The position numbers and the translations under genes are program-made. Under the pieces are notes generated by a model. That model saw only the letters and a list, made by a program, of their open reading frames with translations, was not told where the DNA came from and made no database searches. A stretch of 64,000 bases of DNA from contig NZ_KB894134.1 in NCBI RefSeq assembly GCF_000374365.1, positions 1-64,000 of the forward strand, read 5' to 3'. This document shows, piece by piece, positions 24,122 through 31,296 of the stretch (its first letter is position 1; each line of letters opens with the position of its first letter). The DNA comes from Bacteroides gallinarum DSM 18171 = JCM 13658. GTDB lineage: Bacteria > Bacteroidota > Bacteroidia > Bacteroidales > Bacteroidaceae.

Positions 24122-25353
24122 AAACACTGGAACTGAAAGCAAGCTCTTATAGAATATTCCTATTGGTTTTCCTGGGGTTGCTCACGGCATTCGGCCCGTT
24201 TGCCACCGACATATACCTGCCGGCACTGCCGTCTATGGCAGAGCAGTTCGGCACTACCGCCTCAATGGTGCAGTTCAGCTTGACTTCCTGCATGGTCGGT
24301 CTGGCTGTGGGGCAGTTGCTATTCGGCCCCATGAGCGACCGGTATGGCAGAAAGCCGGTGCTGCTGTGGACTCTGTTGTTGTTTATCCTTTCCACCCTGC
24401 TCTGTCTGTTCTCCGCCGGCATCTGCCAGTTCGTCGTATTCCGCCTGTTCCAGGGGATTGCTGCGGCCGGCAGCATTGTCATCGCCCGTTCCGTATCGAC
24501 GGATATGTTTTCCGGGCGGGAGCTTGCCGGAATCCTTGCCATTGTAGGCTCGATTAACGGTATAGCCCCGGTGCTGGCTCCCGTAATAGGAGGAAGCATG
24601 ACCGAGGCGGGCGGCTGGGAAGGTATCTTCGCCGTCCTGTTGTTCATCGGCATGCTGTTGTCGGCAGCCAGCCTGTTCTTTCGTGAATCCTTACCCGTGG
24701 AAAGACGTGTTCCGTCCAGTCTCTTACGTTTACCGTCATACTTCATACCTTTATTGAGGAACCGTCCTTACACGGGTTATATGTTGCAGCTTGGGTTCGC
24801 CCAGGCTGCACTTTTCGCCAATATCGCGTCCGCACCGTTCATCATGCAGCAGCATTACGGCTTCACCCCGTTCCAGTTCAGCATGTGTTTCGGCATGAAC
24901 GCGCTCGCCGTAGTGGTGTCGGCAGCCCTTGCCGCCAAGTTCAGGCGCATAGAGAACGGGACGTTGCTGGGAAGCGCCGGTCTGCTCGTTTTCTCGGTAT
25001 GCGAGGCGGTGGCATTGTTTGCCGGTTGCGGCTTTCTTCTCTACGAGGGCTTTATGCTCGGCATCCTTTTCTCGCTGGGGCTTTGCTTCACCTCTTCCAC
25101 GACGCTTGCCATGGACAAGGGAAGGGAGTCGTCCGGAAGCGCTTCCGCCTTGTTGGGAGCCGTTTCATTTGCGTTCGGAGGAGCCGTTTCGCCGCTGGTA
25201 GGTATCGGAAATACGCTGCAAGCCACGGGAATCGTGTTCGTGGTGTGCGCCGTATGCTCTCTCGCCTGTGTGTACATGGCGGGGGAAGGCGGTTTCCGCC
25301 GCAAGAGCCGCCGGCTCGTAAAGGCAGACCAATCAAGCGAAAGCCTCGACTGA
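24118..25353 (+). CDS. MFS drug transporter, Bcr/CflA family
   Basis: Start chosen at ATG 24118, which forms an ATGA overlap with the channel gene; a GTG lies two codons earlier. The roughly 411-residue protein has twelve hydrophobic segments. FATDIYLPALPSMAEQFGTT and GPMSDRYGRKPVLL (the MFS A-loop motif) mark the Bcr/CflA subfamily. These proton antiporters extrude drugs such as bicyclomycin or chloramphenicol into the periplasm, from where the tripartite pump could take over. This may be why it is co-operonic. Arg/Lys-rich C-terminal tail. Confidence 0.94.
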   Translation: MKTLELKASSYRIFLLVFLGLLTAFGPFATDIYLPALPSMAEQFGTTASMVQFSLTSCMVGLAVGQLLFGPMSDRYGRKPVLLWTLLLFILSTLLCLFSAGICQFVVFRLFQGIAAAGSIVIARSVSTDMFSGRELAGILAIVGSINGIAPVLAPVIGGSMTEAGGWEGIFAVLLFIGMLLSAASLFFRESLPVERRVPSSLLRLPSYFIPLLRNRPYTGYMLQLGFAQAALFANIASAPFIMQQHYGFTPFQFSMCFGMNALAVVVSAALAAKFRRIENGTLLGSAGLLVFSVCEAVALFAGCGFLLYEGFMLGILFSLGLCFTSSTTLAMDKGRESSGSASALLGAVSFAFGGAVSPLVGIGNTLQATGIVFVVCAVCSLACVYMAGEGGFRRKSRRLVKADQSSESLD

Positions 25354-25380
25354 TATTATAGGAAAGGGGGATATTTATAG

Positions 25381-25419
25381 TTCCACCCTATCGGAACAAA
25401 GTGTTTCCATAGGGTGGAA
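25381..25419 (+). terminator. Hairpin at the end of the efflux operon
   Basis: Perfect 11-bp arms TTCCACCCTAT (25381-25391) and ATAGGGTGGAA (25409-25419), with an inner GGAACA/TGTTTCC pairing, followed by CAGTTTGTTTT. It lies 28 bp after the MFS stop, so it is probably the operon terminator, and its right arm merges into the first unit of the 23-bp repeat array. Confidence 0.65.
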
Positions 25420-25921
25420 CAGTTTGTTTTACCTTAATGAAACAGTTTGTTCTCCCTTAACAAAACAGATTGTTTTTCCCTAGCGAAACAGTTTGTTTTC
25501 TCTTAACTAAACAGTTTGTTTTCCCTTAACTAAACAGTTTGTTTTTCCTTAGCGAAACAGTTTGTTCTTCCTTAGCGAAACAGTTTGTTTTTCCTTAACG
25601 AAACAGTTTGTTTTTCCTTAGCGAAACAGTTTGTTTTCCCTTAACTAAACAGTTTGTTTTCCCTTAACTAAACAGTTTGTTTTTCCCTAACGAAACAGTT
25701 TGTTTTTCCCTTAACAAAACAGTTTGTTCTCCCTTAGCAAAACAGTTTGTTCTCCCTTAGCAAAACAGTTTGTTCTCCCTTAGCAAAACAGTTTGTTCTC
25801 CCTTAGCAAAACAGTTTGTTCTCCCTTAGCGAAACAGTTTGTTCTCCGCGGTGAAACAGTTTGTTCTGCTCGTCGGAACAGTTTGTTTAACCCGGTAAAA
25901 CAGTTTGTTTCGATGCACGGA
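25418..25921. repeat. Tandem array of 22 units of about 23 bp
   Basis: Units start with AACAGTTTGTT at 25418, 25441, 25464, then every 23 bp to 25694, then 25718, 25741, 25764, 25787, 25810, 25833, and finally 25855, 25877 and 25899. Spacing is 23 bp except one 24 and three terminal 22s. The second half varies among subtypes TTCCCTTAACTA, TTTCCTTAGCGA and CTCCCTTAGCAA. The four units from 25718 to 25809 are identical in sequence apart from context. Since 23 is not a multiple of three and the frames close, the array is non-coding. It fills the gap between the efflux operon and the MutS-like gene. Confidence 0.95.
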
Positions 25922-26010
25922 ACTGAAAGTTCCTAAGGGGAAACGGGTATTTGGTTATCTTTTTTGTTATCTTTGCAACAAAAGCGAAGATAAGCTGCAC
26001 CTCGGCATAA

Positions 26011-26058
26011 AAAATGAACAAGTTCATTTTATTCCGCTCTCGGTTTGCATTATCTTTG
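26011..26058 (+). promoter_or_regulatory. Promoter and palindrome before the MutS-like gene
   Basis: The -7 box TATCTTTG lies at 26051-26058, 26 bp before the ATG at 26085. Where the -33 box should be there is a perfect 20-bp palindrome (26011-26030, arms AAAATGAAC / GTTCATTTT), a possible operator. A second TATCTTTG at 25968-25975 could give an upstream start. Confidence 0.55.
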
Positions 26059-26084
26059 CCCCCGACATAAAAACGTGGAGACAA

Positions 26085-27938
26085 ATGGAGAATATCGAGC
26101 ACATAAGCCAGACCTACCGGGATATTGCGGACGGGGCGCAGCAAGAGTTGAATAAAGTACAGAAACAGATTTACCGCATCGGCACGTTGCGGCTGGCGCT
26201 GTTCGTTGCCGGGGTAGCGGGAATTATTTATTTCTATACGGAAGGCTGGGCGGTACTGGCAGGAATTGCATTCGTTACCCTTCTGCCGTTCATTCTCCTG
26301 ATAAAGTATCATAACCGTTTGTTCTACCGTAAGGATTACCTGGAAAAAAAGATAGAAATCAACCGGCAGGAACTGGCGGCGTTGGATTATGATTTTTCCT
26401 GCTTCGACGGCGGGGAGGAATTTACCGACCCGGCGCATCTGTATGCTTACGACTTGGATGTATTCGGCGCCCGCTCCTTATTCCAATATATCAACCGGAC
26501 TTGTACCGAGCCGGGAAAGCGCCTGCTGGCCAGCTGGTTGGGGAAGCATCTCGAAAAGAAGGAGGATATACTGGAACGCCAGGAGGCTGTACGCTGCCTG
26601 GCGCCCGAACTGCACTTCCGTCAGCGCTTCCGCATCCTCGGCTTGTTGCACAAGGGAAAGGCGGCCGATGAAGCGGAACTGAAAGCGTGGGCGGCAAGCC
26701 CTTCCGTATTCCGTTGCAACCGGTTGCTGCGTGCTTTGCCGGCAATCATCACGGGTGTCAATATCTTATGCCTGCTCTCGGTTGCGGCAGGTTACTTGTC
26801 CGCGACTGCCTGGGGAGTACTATGGACGTGTTTCGTAACTGCCGGCTTTGCCTTTACCGGAAAGATTAGCAAGATACAAACCGTATATGGAAAGAAGCTG
26901 CAAATTCTGGGTACATATGCCGGTATGCTCGAGCTTATGGAAGCCCAGCCCATGCAATGCGGCTTACTGGAGGGTATCAAGAAAGAAATCGGCGGCGAGC
27001 ACCGGAAGGCTTCTCTTTCTATCAGCCGGCTGAGTAAGCTGATGAATGAGCTCGACCAGCGTAATAATGTGTTTATGTATATAATCCTCAACGGTTTGTT
27101 CTTCTGGGAACTGCGGCAAATCATGCGTATCGAAGCATGGAAGGAGCAGTATGCCGGCGAACTGCCTCGCTGGCTCAACGCTCTCGGGCAAATGGATGCT
27201 CTCAACTCATTGGCAACCTTTGCTTATAATCATCCCGGATATGCTTATCCGGTTTTGCTCGATAAGGCGGATATGCTTTCCGGTATGGAGAATACCGGCG
27301 GCGGCTCCCGTTTCGTGCTCCGCGCAAAGGCGTTAGGGCATCCGCTGATGCACCGCGACCGTTGTGTCCGCAACGATATCGACATGCAGAAGCGTCCTTT
27401 CTTCATCATTATCACCGGCGCCAACATGGCGGGGAAAAGTACGTACCTGCGCACGATAGGCGTCAATTACCTGCTTGCCTGTACCGGTATGCCTGTCTGT
27501 GCGGACGAAATGGAAATATATCCGGCACGTCTCATCACCAGCCTGCGTACCAGCGACTCCCTGAGCGACAACGAGTCTTATTTCTTTGCCGAGCTCAAGC
27601 GTCTGAAGCTTATCATCGACAAGTTGCAAGCGGGCGAGGAGTTGTTCATCATCCTCGACGAGATTTTGAAGGGTACGAATTCCATGGACAAGCAGAAGGG
27701 GTCTTTCTCGCTTATCAAGCAGTTTATGGCTTTGCAGGCAAACGGTATCATCGCCACTCATGACTTATTACTGGGCACGCTTATCGACCTCTTTCCCGAA
27801 AATATCCGTAACTTCCGTTTCGAGGCGGATATTACCGGCGACGAGCTGACGTTTTCTTACCGCCTCCGCCCGGGGGTGGCGCAGAATATGAATGCTTGCT
27901 TCCTGATGAAGAAAATGGGGATTGCCGTTACCGACTAA
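26085..27938 (+). CDS. Membrane-anchored MutS-family ATPase
   Basis: Start chosen at 26085 (MENIEHISQ, about 617 residues) because it follows the promoter; a longer frame opens at 25905 inside the repeat array. The C-terminal third is a MutS domain V ATPase: Walker A GANMAGKSTYLRT near residue 444, FFAELKRLKLI, Walker B LFIILDEILKGTNS near 522, and THDLLLG. The N-terminus has two transmembrane segments (residues about 32-75: LRLALFVAGVAGIIYFY and LAGIAFVTLLPFILLI) and lacks the mismatch-recognition domain, so it is not the repair MutS. MutS-core helical domains fill the middle. Its role is unknown; binding of branched DNA at the membrane is possible. Confidence 0.85.
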   Translation: MENIEHISQTYRDIADGAQQELNKVQKQIYRIGTLRLALFVAGVAGIIYFYTEGWAVLAGIAFVTLLPFILLIKYHNRLFYRKDYLEKKIEINRQELAALDYDFSCFDGGEEFTDPAHLYAYDLDVFGARSLFQYINRTCTEPGKRLLASWLGKHLEKKEDILERQEAVRCLAPELHFRQRFRILGLLHKGKAADEAELKAWAASPSVFRCNRLLRALPAIITGVNILCLLSVAAGYLSATAWGVLWTCFVTAGFAFTGKISKIQTVYGKKLQILGTYAGMLELMEAQPMQCGLLEGIKKEIGGEHRKASLSISRLSKLMNELDQRNNVFMYIILNGLFFWELRQIMRIEAWKEQYAGELPRWLNALGQMDALNSLATFAYNHPGYAYPVLLDKADMLSGMENTGGGSRFVLRAKALGHPLMHRDRCVRNDIDMQKRPFFIIITGANMAGKSTYLRTIGVNYLLACTGMPVCADEMEIYPARLITSLRTSDSLSDNESYFFAELKRLKLIIDKLQAGEELFIILDEILKGTNSMDKQKGSFSLIKQFMALQANGIIATHDLLLGTLIDLFPENIRNFRFEADITGDELTFSYRLRPGVAQNMNACFLMKKMGIAVTD

Positions 27939-27979
27939 TCCCCTCTGAAAAGCTAAATTGATTGTATGTTTACGTAGGC

Positions 27980-28519
27980 TTATACTGCCTTGCATTTAGA
28001 CAGGAAGGCCGAGACTGCCGCAGCCTGGCTGCCGGTAAAATAGTGTACGGAGGTTACTGGCGTATAGGTATAGGGCACGAACTGGAACAGTTGCAATGCG
28101 GCAAACTGATTGTCTTGCGAAATCAGGATGTCCATACGTACGTTACCGCTCGATTCGCTCTTTATCCCGGCTTCGCCGCCCAGCTTACCGTTTTCAATCA
28201 TTTCGGTCAGCGTACCGATATGTTTCAAATCGAAGAACAGGCTGCGTTCTTTCGCCACGCTTCCCGTAGGAAGGTAGACTATTTCCCGCGATTTCCAGAA
28301 CAAACGGAACACGCCCAGTAAAGCCAACGCCGTACCCAGCACCATTAGGAACATGCTGAGCGTGGAGGATTTGTCGTTCATCTCAAAGACAGAGAAAAAC
28401 ACAAGAATGCCTGCCGCCAGCATCACTGCCGAGATTATGAGTCCGGAAACACTGGTGCGTTTTGCTATATCGGGATGTGAAGACGCAAAAAGTGTTGCGC
28501 CGATAGTTTGAGTTGCCAT
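27980..28519 (-). CDS. Hypothetical membrane protein
   Basis: I do not recognise this 179-residue protein. It has two hydrophobic segments at residues about 26-46 (GLIISAVMLAAGILVFFSVF) and 55-73 (MFLMVLGTALALLGVFRLFW), and a soluble C-terminal part of about 105 residues containing FFDLKHIGTLTEMIENG. The last 30 residues (HYFTGSQAAAVSAFLSK) look like a small helical end. It is convergent with the MutS-like gene, ending 42 bp away. Confidence 0.7.
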   Translation of the reverse strand: MATQTIGATLFASSHPDIAKRTSVSGLIISAVMLAAGILVFFSVFEMNDKSSTLSMFLMVLGTALALLGVFRLFWKSREIVYLPTGSVAKERSLFFDLKHIGTLTEMIENGKLGGEAGIKSESSGNVRMDILISQDNQFAALQLFQFVPYTYTPVTSVHYFTGSQAAAVSAFLSKCKAV

Positions 28520-28632
28520 AATATATATCGTTTTATGAATTAATAAAGTGTGAAATAGTGCATAGCGTATCTCCTCGTATATAAACGCACAGGTTCATAT
28601 GCAAGGGAATAAGTCAGGAAAACGACAGGACA

Positions 28633-29652
28633 CTAAATCAGAATTCGCCTTAGTGTGAAAATGTAGTACTCACACGCAGGCCGGCAACGACAGTAAGCGG
28701 TAACGTCGAAAAGTTTTTCTTTATGCAGGGACAGAACCGCTTCGCGCTGGGCAAGCTTTGCCACCCAGTCTTTTAATGAAAAGATATATTCAGTAATGTA
28801 AGAGCGTTGGACACGGGACATTACCAACGACTGTATGTGTCCGGTATTACTTGTCAGCTCTGCAACCGGCAGATAGGGCAATCGGGGGGAAGTGAAGCAT
28901 GCCTCGTCCTGATGATGAACGGCGGTAGTCTGAATATCCGCAGCATCTCCTGTGCTTACCGAATTGCTGACGGTTGTATCATCCGAGGCTGGATTGCTTG
29001 ACGGCGGGGTGGTTGACGTTGCATTTGGGTTGGTTAATGCTGCATCGCTTAATACCAGGGTGGTTGATGTTGCATTGGTTAACGACGGAGTACTTAGCGC
29101 AGCATTACTTAATACCGGGGTATTCAATACTGCATTGCTTAACGACGGAACACTCAGCGCAACATCACTTAATACCGGGGTATTCAATGCTACATTGCTT
29201 AATGACGAAGTGCTCAGCGCAGCATTACTTAATACTGGGGTATTCAATGCTGCATTGCTTAATGACGAACCGCTCAGCACAGCATTACTTAATACCGGGG
29301 TATTCAATGCTACATTGCTTAATGACGGAGTGCCCAGCACAGCATTACTTAATACCGGGGTATTCAATGCTGCATTGCTTAACGACGGAGTGCTCAGCAC
29401 AGCATTACTTAATACCGGGGTATTCAATGCTACATTGCCTAATGACGGAGTGCTCAGCACAGCATTACTTAATACTGGGGTATTCAATGCTGCATTGCTT
29501 AATGACGAACTGCTCAGCGCAGCATTGCTTAACGTCATATCGCTTAACGCTGTGTTGCGCGATGCCGCATTACCTAACGCTGCACCATCCGGCGTTTGCC
29601 ACAAGAACAACGCAAGTACCAGAAATCCTATAAGTTTTAGATATTTCCCCAT
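28633..29652 (-). CDS. Exported protein of 20-residue pentapeptide-like repeats
   Basis: I do not recognise this gene. Start chosen at 29652 (about 339 residues) because it opens a signal peptide, MGKYLKLIGFLVLALFLW; the frame extends to 29700. Residues about 24-50 are degenerate repeats. Seven full copies of the unit SNAALNTPVLSNAVLSTPSL follow, then decayed copies and a Ser/Thr/Asn/Pro-rich linker. Each unit divides into four pentads with Leu at the same place (AALNT, PVLSN, AVLST, PSLSN), close to the A(D/N)LXX pentapeptide rule, so four pentads could make one turn of a quadrilateral beta helix. The last 95 residues form a separate domain with an amphipathic stretch and CRCRPACEYY. The location is probably periplasmic or surface. 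Confidence 0.8.
   Translation of the reverse strand: MGKYLKLIGFLVLALFLWQTPDGAALGNAASRNTALSDMTLSNAALSSSSLSNAALNTPVLSNAVLSTPSLGNVALNTPVLSNAVLSTPSLSNAALNTPVLSNAVLGTPSLSNVALNTPVLSNAVLSGSSLSNAALNTPVLSNAALSTSSLSNVALNTPVLSDVALSVPSLSNAVLNTPVLSNAALSTPSLTNATSTTLVLSDAALTNPNATSTTPPSSNPASDDTTVSNSVSTGDAADIQTTAVHHQDEACFTSPRLPYLPVAELTSNTGHIQSLVMSRVQRSYITEYIFSLKDWVAKLAQREAVLSLHKEKLFDVTAYCRCRPACEYYIFTLRRILI
29101..29520. repeat. Seven 60-bp tandem repeats inside the exported protein gene
   Basis: Seven consecutive 60-bp units, each beginning AGCATTACTT-AATAC at 29101 + 60n and differing at only a few positions. A diverged copy precedes (29041-29100) and a half copy follows (29521-29550). The period is exactly 20 codons, so unit gain or loss keeps the reading frame. 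The DNA-level identity is higher than amino-acid selection alone would require, which points to recent expansion. Confidence 0.95.
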
Positions 29653-29661
29653 AACTGTCTG

Positions 29662-29669
29662 CAAATATA
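29662..29669 (-). promoter_or_regulatory. Possible -7 box near the repeat-protein start
   Basis: Minus-strand TATATTTG fits the -7 consensus, but no -33 partner is seen. The transcript would begin only a few bases before the ATG at 29652. It may be fortuitous, or the message may be nearly leaderless. Confidence 0.3.
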
Positions 29670-29740
29670 ACGGTTTATCCCATTGATTTGTTTTATACAT
29701 ACATCTTTTAATGTTTGTTCATGTAAATAAAAACATAAAC

Positions 29741-29771
29741 AAAAAAGCCGCCCCAATCGCTGGGACGGCTT
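29741..29771 (-). terminator. Terminator of the ribosomal protein cluster
   Basis: On the minus strand AAGCCGTCCCA, a short loop, TGGGGCGGCTT (one mismatch) and then TTTTTT. It lies about 25 bp after the rplQ stop. Confidence 0.9.
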
Positions 29772-29796
29772 CCTATATATAAAAAGAATAGTTGAA

Positions 29797-30300
29797 TTAT
29801 TCAGCTTTTGCTTCTTCAGCAGCAGGAGTTTCGGCAACCGGTGCTGTTTCAGCAGCGGGAGCAGCTTCAGTAGTGGCAGCAGCCTTCTTTGAACGGCGGG
29901 TACGGGTAGCTTTCTTAGCAACTTTTTCCTTAGCCATGTTCTCGTTGTAGTCAACGAGTTCGATGAAACACATTTCTGCGTTGTCACCCAAACGGTTACC
30001 GGTCTTGATGATACGGGTATAACCGCCCGGACGGTCTGCAATCTTCACAGAGATTTCCTTGAACAACTCGGTTACAGCATACTTGTCTTGCAGATTGCTA
30101 AATACAACACGACGAGAGTTAGTCGTATCGTCTTTAGCTTTTGTAATCAAAGGCTCAACGAATTTCTTCAAAGCTTTAGCCTTTGCAACGGTCGTAGTGA
30201 TTCTTTTGTGCTTAATCAAAGAACACGCCATATTAGCCAACATAGCGTTTCTATGAGAGGCAGTACGACCCAAATGGTTGAATTTCTTATTATGTCTCAT
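29797..30300 (-). CDS. rplQ: 50S ribosomal protein L17 with Ala/Glu-rich tail
   Basis: L17 binds 23S rRNA near the exit tunnel. The core ([20 protein letters not shown] to about residue 118) is standard. After it comes a basic patch ([16 protein letters not shown]) and a roughly 35-residue tail of Ala, Glu, Pro and Thr with repeated [16 protein letters not shown]-like words, giving 167 residues against about 125 in E. coli. It is the last gene of the alpha operon part, 3 bp after rpoA. Confidence 0.97.
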
Positions 30301-30303
30301 TTT

Positions 30304-31296
30304 TTATTCTTTATCTAATTTATATTTAGAAATATCAGTTCCAAACGACAGATTCAGACTTTCCAGCAAATCATCAAGCTCGGTAAGCGATTTCTTTCCG
30401 AAATTTCTGAATTTCAGCAAATCCGTCTTGTTGAACTGTACCAAGTCGCCCAAAGTCTCTACATCGGCGGCCTTCAAACAGTTGAGGGCACGAACCGAGA
30501 GATCCATATCGACAAGCTTGGTCTTCAGCAACTGACGCATGTGCAATACTTCTTCATCAAACTCTTCATTGCCGTCTACATCGTTGCTTTCCAACGTAAT
30601 CTTCTCGTCGGAGAAGAGCATGAAGTGATAAATCAGTATTTTTGCAGCTTCTTTCAGAGCTTCTTTCGGGTGAATGGAACCATCCGTAGTAATTTCAAGC
30701 ACCAGTTTCTCGTAGTCTGTCTTCTGCTCAACACGGAAGTTCTCTACCTGGTACTTAACATTACGTATCGGAGTATAAATAGAATCGATAGGAATTACGT
30801 TCACGTCGGTGCAATATTCGCGGTTTTCGTCAGCAGGAACATAACCACGACCTTTGTTGATCGTAATATCTATCTGCATAGTTGATTTTGAATCTAAATG
30901 ACAAATAACTAATTCAGGATTTAACACTTCAAATCCAGTCAAATACTTACCTATGTCACCTGCTTTAAATTCACTTGAGTTCTCGACCGTGATGCTTACT
31001 TTCTCGCTCTCGAATTCTTCAACTACTTGCTTGAACCTCACTTGTTTCAGATTCAAGATAATGTTAGTAACATCCTCTTTTACTCCCGGAACACTGGAAA
31101 ATTCATGCTCAACACCTTCTATCTTGATAGTGGTGATAGCAAAACCTTCCAATGAAGAAAGCAGGATGCGGCGCAGTGCATTACCCACGGTAATACCGAA
31201 ACCGGGCTCCAACGGACGAAATTCGAACTTTCCGAATTTAGAGTCCGCTTCCAACATTAATACTTTATCAGGTTTTTGAAATGCTAATATCGCCAT
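30304..31296 (-). CDS. rpoA: RNA polymerase alpha subunit
   Basis: At 330 residues the length is normal. The N-terminal assembly domain is seen in [20 protein letters not shown], with the C-terminal domain (about residues 250-318, [20 protein letters not shown] then [20 protein letters not shown]) that contacts UP elements and activators. It lies between rpsD and rplQ as in most bacteria. Confidence 0.98.

Follow-up and report, generated by a model that had tools for sequence, protein, structure and literature searches.

A candidate translational leader ORF of the Bacteroidaceae with a pentapeptide-like repeat array inserted in its Bacteroides gallinarum version

Introduction

Arrest peptides are the closest described counterparts of the gene considered here. 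SecM, to go by the part of its description available to us, unites a signal or transmembrane segment, a free spacer, a C-terminal arrest-type sequence and an RNA structure by which the next gene's start is hidden. MifM and VemP show a similar layout. To our knowledge, no monitoring substrate of the SecM/MifM/VemP type carries a repeat domain, and a literature search joining SecM with 'pentapeptide repeat' found no paper. In the Bacteroidota, arrest peptides that stall at the stop codon have been described upstream of secA and secDF (available part of PMC10987492): these '-stop' peptides are small ORFs ahead of another gene, with an N-terminal signal and a conserved C-terminus at the stop, ending in N-S/A-P-stop, and the ribosome stalls on them with the stop codon in its A site. 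RAPP-type arrest peptides, as far as the accessible text of PMC12992588 goes, occur before genes of diverse function. Comparable in another respect are the pentapeptide repeat proteins (e.g. HetL, NP275/276, AlbG, Qnr and MfpA) and the designed beta1 solenoids, which form four-sided beta helices with leucine at position i of the pentad.

The gene described here shares features with both groups. It lies in a 64,000-nucleotide stretch of B. gallinarum DNA, the whole of which is called the window below. We lean slightly towards reading its ORF as a signal-bearing leader of the Bacteroidaceae that would control translation of the next gene, the repeat array being an insertion into its spacer.

Organization of the ORF

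The ORF reads on the minus strand from an ATG at 29652 to a stop at 28633-28635 and encodes 339 amino acids; the initial annotation had placed the gene correctly at 28633-29652. An alternative ORF of 355 amino acids, starting at 29700, is open as well; relatives conserve the start at 29652, and between the two ATGs sits a promoter-like box. From its N-terminus the product comprises a signal-like segment, a pentapeptide array, a linker and a conserved C-terminal part that ends at the stop. The N-terminal segment (residues 1-21; 29590-29652, minus strand) is hydrophobic and resembles an export signal, both by inspection and by alignment with relatives, with AlphaFold2 placing a helix at residues 2-18; this agrees with the earlier suggestion that the protein may be exported. 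The array spans 37 pentads (residues 22-206; 29035-29589, minus strand), for which a pentapeptide-type beta helix is predicted, and includes seven near-identical units of 60 bp or 20 residues (residues 52-191; 29080-29499, same strand). The linker between the array and the C-terminal part has low AlphaFold2 confidence. The C-terminal part (residues 254-339; 28636-28893, minus strand) is mostly helical in the AlphaFold2 model; the distinct C-terminal domain claimed at the outset is present as a distinct part, which is more plausibly the working end of a putative leader ORF. It closes with a conserved tail, CEYYIFTLRRILI (28636-28674, minus strand), which runs up to the stop codon. The downstream gene (27980-28519, minus strand) encodes a protein of 179 amino acids with two hydrophobic stretches, by inspection a two-transmembrane (two-TM) protein.

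Relatives of the protein

With one genome per species in the comparison set, the protein was matched at an E-value of 0.001 or better in 59 of the 158 genomes of the genus; the match in one genome (G178) comprises the repeats only and was left out of the family count. Profile searches gave matches in 51 of 399 genomes of the family and in 32 of 100 relatives, and the named genomes provide 36 loci, mostly from Bacteroides (among them B. clarus, at 79% identity, B. propionicigenes, B. fluxus, B. rodentium and B. fragilis). A genome may encode up to four family members, and B. gallinarum encodes three. Neither a relative nor a strain variant turned up in a single scan of viral contigs. Searches of Pfam with the C-terminal part (18 members) and the downstream gene, and of NCBIfam with the C-terminal part of the window copy, four or five paralogs and the downstream gene, yielded nothing above the cut-offs.

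A homologue search with the C-terminal part, which the initial annotation had proposed, did recover relatives. They are 130-170 amino acids long, as against 339 for the window copy: all 32 aligned relatives share both ends with it, and all 32 show a gap in place of the array. No array was seen in the other family ORFs inspected, and among the genus matches (158 genomes) the other open frames have at most 189 residues, except for one of 260 (in G138, locus L079 by its coordinates), which is likewise without the array. Thus, the repeat appears to be a lineage-specific insert between the signal and the C-terminus, found in B. gallinarum alone among the genomes searched. The idea that a rod is the point of the gene is not borne out: the 32 relatives have the same ends without it, and the units lack a synonymous excess, as detailed below.

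One locus (L004/L053, G055), excluded from the alignments as L004 for its internal stop, has a TAG in frame behind the signal region and a further stop close to where the downstream gene begins; these reflect either decay or a consensus error of metagenome assembly.

The conserved tail and the downstream genes

The bodies of the family members differ, and it is their last residues that agree (C/S, Y-Y, V/I, F/Y, L, R-R, I, L/I, I, stop), giving the consensus CEYY[VI][FY]xLRRI[LI]I, which is conserved right up to the stop. In 30 family members, mean conservation is 3.3 bits at the last 11 positions, versus 1.5 elsewhere. The tail was part of the profiles or motif by which the members were collected; hence, its conservation at the amino-acid level is partly a matter of selection of the rows, which does not apply to the codon pattern or to the pairing described below. 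In 68 tails, the third positions of most codons vary synonymously (0.05 bits at codon -9), which argues that the peptide is kept and not the RNA. The final isoleucine codon is more uniform than the other third positions, being ATT in 63 of the 68 copies, and the stop codon is TAG in 46 of the 68. A nucleic-acid element at the tail was considered and rejected, given the free third positions in these 68 tails. A literature search on the tail or the family gave no paper on either among the matches listed.

The two-TM gene lies directly downstream, on the same strand, in 35 of the 36 named loci, and rplQ is found within the stretch in 27 of the 36. Taken from the other side, the two-TM gene has 22 matches in 61 genomes: 18 of the 21 that were checked are preceded by an ORF with the tail motif (two of these with a variant ending), and the remaining three have no recognizable leader upstream. 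Other tail-bearing ORFs precede, again on the same strand, genes for ExbB-ExbD-ExbD-TonB, for DedA/PhoU-like/Pit, or from nuoA onward, the names of these neighbors being our reading of their translations. The two-TM and DedA genes co-occur in one locus (L126). Among 13 stretches scanned, an rRNA operon or its 5S end directly precedes three members (L117, L122 and L123), all with the same tail, directly after the 5S rRNA and ahead of an ExbB-TonB operon. In another species (L145, G027) no leader ORF was seen; the stretch between rplQ and the two-TM gene instead holds short tandem repeats, a case of repeat growth at the corresponding place, and this two-TM gene contains one stop.

These associations bear on a serious rival to the leader reading, which we regard as possible though distinctly less probable: the product might be a small secreted protein with a function in trans, e.g. 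binding a partner by its C-terminal helix, with the beta helix serving as a stalk in this copy and the RNA stem merely coupling translation. Such a protein would account for the signal-like N-terminus, for the about 80 residues conserved in orthologs and for the two helices that AlphaFold2 predicts, at low to middling confidence, in the C-terminal part; conservation in the two-TM group reaches about 60 residues upstream of the tail, which gives a secreted helical protein with a job of its own some probability. Conserved pairing alone also fits simple translational coupling. Against this, one and the same tail is found on poorly alignable bodies before four kinds of genes (two-TM, ExbB, DedA and nuoA), which a shared partner in trans explains less simply than does a role in cis, and conservation peaks at the last residues, in rows partly selected through the tail.

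Promoter-like box and pairing between the ORF stop and the next start

A box, TATATTTG (29662-29669, minus strand), lies 17 nt before the ATG and conforms to TAnnTTTG, which we take to be the -7-type promoter motif of Bacteroides. Starts of leaders were assigned for 45 of the 55 loci used in counting this box: it occurs in the last 45 nt in 29 of the 45, versus a mean of 1.3 in mononucleotide shuffles. In the two-TM leaders with an assigned start it falls within -40 to -10 in 26 of 32 (exactly at -17 in 21), as against 1 of 32 in the intergenic region; the corresponding count for ExbB leaders is 1 of 12.

At the other end, the stop of the leader and the next ATG are about 100-125 nt apart in most of the group, and the 30 nt that follow the stop pair with the 35 nt that precede the next ATG by way of compensating changes across species. 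In the window, the core of the 5' arm (28619-28624, minus strand) lies 9-14 nt past the leader stop; its pairing partner, the core of the 3' arm (28529-28534, minus strand), lies 10-15 nt ahead of the downstream ATG. When arms were swapped between loci (55 loci, with L076 excluded from the pairing tests), the mean energy was -8.17 kcal/mol with their own partners versus -5.12 kcal/mol with swapped ones, a difference reached in 0 of 20,000 permutations. Redundancy filters of 80, 65 and 55% identity were used in these partner-swap tests, and under the stricter limits, with 45 and 32 loci (the latter at 55%), the count was still 0 of 20,000. The signal is found in the two-TM group (37 loci, 0 of 20,000). 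For the ExbB group (14 loci, 1 of 20,000) it is carried by seven loci of one other genus, the seven loci from the genus Bacteroides giving no signal at the tested place, and the three DedA loci show no pairing there either (16,690 of 20,000).

Two of three controls with neighboring regions had no effect (lowest count 1,879 of 20,000), and the third, the end of the ORF against the 3' arm, had a slight one (641, 502 and 220 of 20,000 in the three sets). The intergenic region between rplQ and the leader had no effect either (15,302 of 20,000, 21 loci), versus 0 of 20,000 for the true arms on those same 21 loci. Locus by locus the pairing is less marked: dinucleotide shuffles (95% identity filter, L003 excluded as well) gave p<0.05 in 23 of 64 loci and p<0.01 in 13 of 64, so many single loci are weak. 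The pair of the window itself, CGTTTT with AAAACG, ranks at 0.02 among partners and has a shuffle p of 0.077; the outer stem is absent from the window's own minimum-energy fold and is present in those of two (L011 and L105) of the 14 chosen loci that were folded. RNAalifold returned no pairs from a MAFFT alignment of 23 intergenic regions, in which the arms look out of register, and an RNA-family search of window positions 25000-31000 gave two sub-threshold matches only.

Comparison with arrest-peptide leaders

The signal-like N-terminus, the free spacer, the tail at the stop, the promoter-like box and the pairing of the post-stop arm with the next start together lead to the proposal of a leader. 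Transcription would start just before the leader, as the box suggests. With its stop free of a ribosome, the bases after the stop would pair with those before the next ATG and, going by the compensated pairing in the two-TM group, may thereby hide the downstream start. By analogy with SecM/MifM and the '-stop' arrest peptides, the C-terminal tail might slow or stall ribosomes at the stop codon; a ribosome held there would cover the 5' arm and thereby open the membrane gene downstream. Through the signal sequence, the stall could respond to how export or membrane insertion is proceeding.

Set against the features of the '-stop' arrest peptides in the available part of PMC10987492, the ORF is likewise a small upstream ORF, without annotated function and on the strand of the next gene, with a conserved C-terminal sequence at the stop, in rows partly selected via this C-terminal part; as a putative counterpart of their N-terminal signal, its N-terminus is hydrophobic by inspection and alignment. 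The spacer, for which more than 30 residues are asked there, is about 100 residues long in the relatives and about 300 in the window copy. The genes that follow are different, being two-TM, ExbB/TonB, DedA/Pit or nuo genes (from nuoA) instead of secA, secDF or yidC, and the tail is LRRI(L/I)I-stop instead of N-S/A-P-stop. Stalling with the stop codon in the A site is described for those peptides, and would be predicted for the present family. As in SecM, to the extent covered by the description available to us, a signal-like segment, a free spacer, a C-terminal sequence of the arrest type and an RNA structure at the downstream start follow one another; for the last of these we have the compensated pairing of the two-TM group, from which masking of the start is inferred. 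The tail has no SecM or RAPP-like motif, and no sequence kinship to SecM, MifM or VemP was seen; the downstream genes also differ from theirs.

If the leader reading is true, a tail of about 12 residues would be the mark of a class of switches in gut Bacteroidaceae that sense export or insertion and that precede the operons for ExbB/TonB, complex I and phosphate transport, and the window copy would be a natural experiment on how much folded protein fits between a signal and an arrest tail. A bolder combination seems improbable to us when taken as a whole: that these are new Bacteroidaceae arrest peptides which stall at the stop with the LRRI(L/I)I tail and control inner-membrane operons, including those for TonB energizing and complex I, and that in addition the exported beta helix pulls on the stalled chain or times its release. 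The beta helix would in that case fold turn by turn after export, acting as a folded repeat ruler in a force sensor.

The repeat array and its predicted fold

The seven near-identical 20-residue repeats first noticed in this gene are real: the full units have 85-97% pairwise DNA identity, and Tandem Repeats Finder reports a 60-bp period with 8.1 copies, 89% matches and no indels. Leucine occupies position i in 35 of the 37 pentads, the more diverged ones at the edges included, a count in one phase that 0 of 10,000 shuffles of the array reached. Of the composition given in the initial annotation, the richness in Ser, Thr and Asn holds (S+T+N make up 43% of the array residues), and the Ala or Pro two residues before the Leu holds in 27 of the 37 pentads (A in 15, P in 12) and fails in the other 10. 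The supposed approach to the A(D/N)LXX rule does not hold: D or N precedes the Leu in 0 of the 37 pentads, the residue at i-1 being A, V, S or T.

The 60-bp unit can be divided into four 15-bp pieces that resemble one another, and divergence is greater in the edge pentads than in the central ones; together these fit short duplications having come first. The spacer after the signal may accordingly have grown, apparently by duplication of 15-bp and then of 60-bp units, into the array of 185 residues, which keeps the frame and leaves the signal, the tail and the downstream arms in place. Unit-to-unit changes are transitions in 14 of 15 cases, and in the sense frame 4 of the 15 are synonymous, versus 5.8 expected; lacking a synonymous excess, the units give no evidence yet of selection on a rod. 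Selection on the array at the amino-acid level, considered as a candidate from the same changes, gave no signal.

Structure prediction, suggested earlier as a check on the pentapeptide beta helix, came out in its favor. With an input alignment covering only the two ends of the protein, AlphaFold2 predicts for the sense frame a regular four-sided helix of the pentapeptide type, with short strands every five residues, at residues 45-197. Block means of pLDDT are 74-90 over residues 41-190 (84-90 in the core); the overall pTM is 0.48, and the mean pLDDT is below 50 in two of the five models. A plain Foldseek search with this model gave no match with E<0.001. In a second structural aligner the top 21 PDB rows are all pentapeptide proteins or designed pentapeptide solenoids (Z 12.9-16.2, to be read with the caution that for repeats a Z under about 13 may arise by chance), and other solenoids score below them, at Z 12.0 and lower. 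The sense-frame model thus points to a pentapeptide fold. Over 174 aligned residues the array has 27% identity to HetL and 29% to designed beta1. It is unlike the pentapeptide repeat proteins in that D/N never occurs at i-1 and P stands at i-2 in 12 of 37 pentads, as well as in its signal-like N-terminus, its insertion within another family and its score under the Pfam gathering threshold.

The predicted fold has to be weighed against a simpler account, compatible with either reading of the gene and to which we give not quite an even chance, namely that the array is nothing more than a coding minisatellite which the spacer tolerates, without any part in structure. Leu codons recurring with a 15-bp period will look pentapeptide-like automatically on either strand: the sense frame misses the cut-off of PF13599 (Pentapeptide_4; 31.3 versus 38 bits), whereas an antisense ORF overlapping the array (28952-29686, plus strand, open for 244 codons) exceeds that of Pentapeptide_2 (29.8 versus 26.4 bits). 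The lack of a synonymous excess and of an array in the other family matches of the genus (158 genomes) suits this account as well. It accords less well with the Leu kept even in the diverged edge pentads, with a phmmer match to NP275-NP276 (E 1.9e-9) and with the four-sided helix, which appears in the sense frame only. The antisense model, folded as a single sequence unlike the sense frame with its alignment of the ends, has strands of 9-13 residues, about one per 20 residues, with repeat block means of 70-86 and a pTM of 0.67, exceeding that of the sense model. Its PDB rows are left-handed helix proteins (many at an rmsd near 12) and other solenoids; none of the 50 is a pentapeptide protein, an absence that is no proof that none fits. 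Since the antisense frame passes Pentapeptide_2 and yet models differently, profile matches alone prove little. That this frame is itself a real gene, as its length and Pfam score might suggest, we consider very improbable: the signal, C-terminus, promoter-like box and synteny of the sense frame are conserved, and nothing comparable was seen for the antisense frame.

We regard the repeat as a recent expansion within the spacer that can probably adopt a beta-helix fold. Even on a modest reading, it would be a case of a beta-helix-like domain arising by short-repeat duplication within an unrelated gene.

As a separate observation, the window also holds 19.5 copies of a 23-bp minisatellite (25418-25865), followed by a 44-bp period (25833-25923); the minisatellite is unrelated to the coding array and lies just before an ORF that by our reading is mutS-like.
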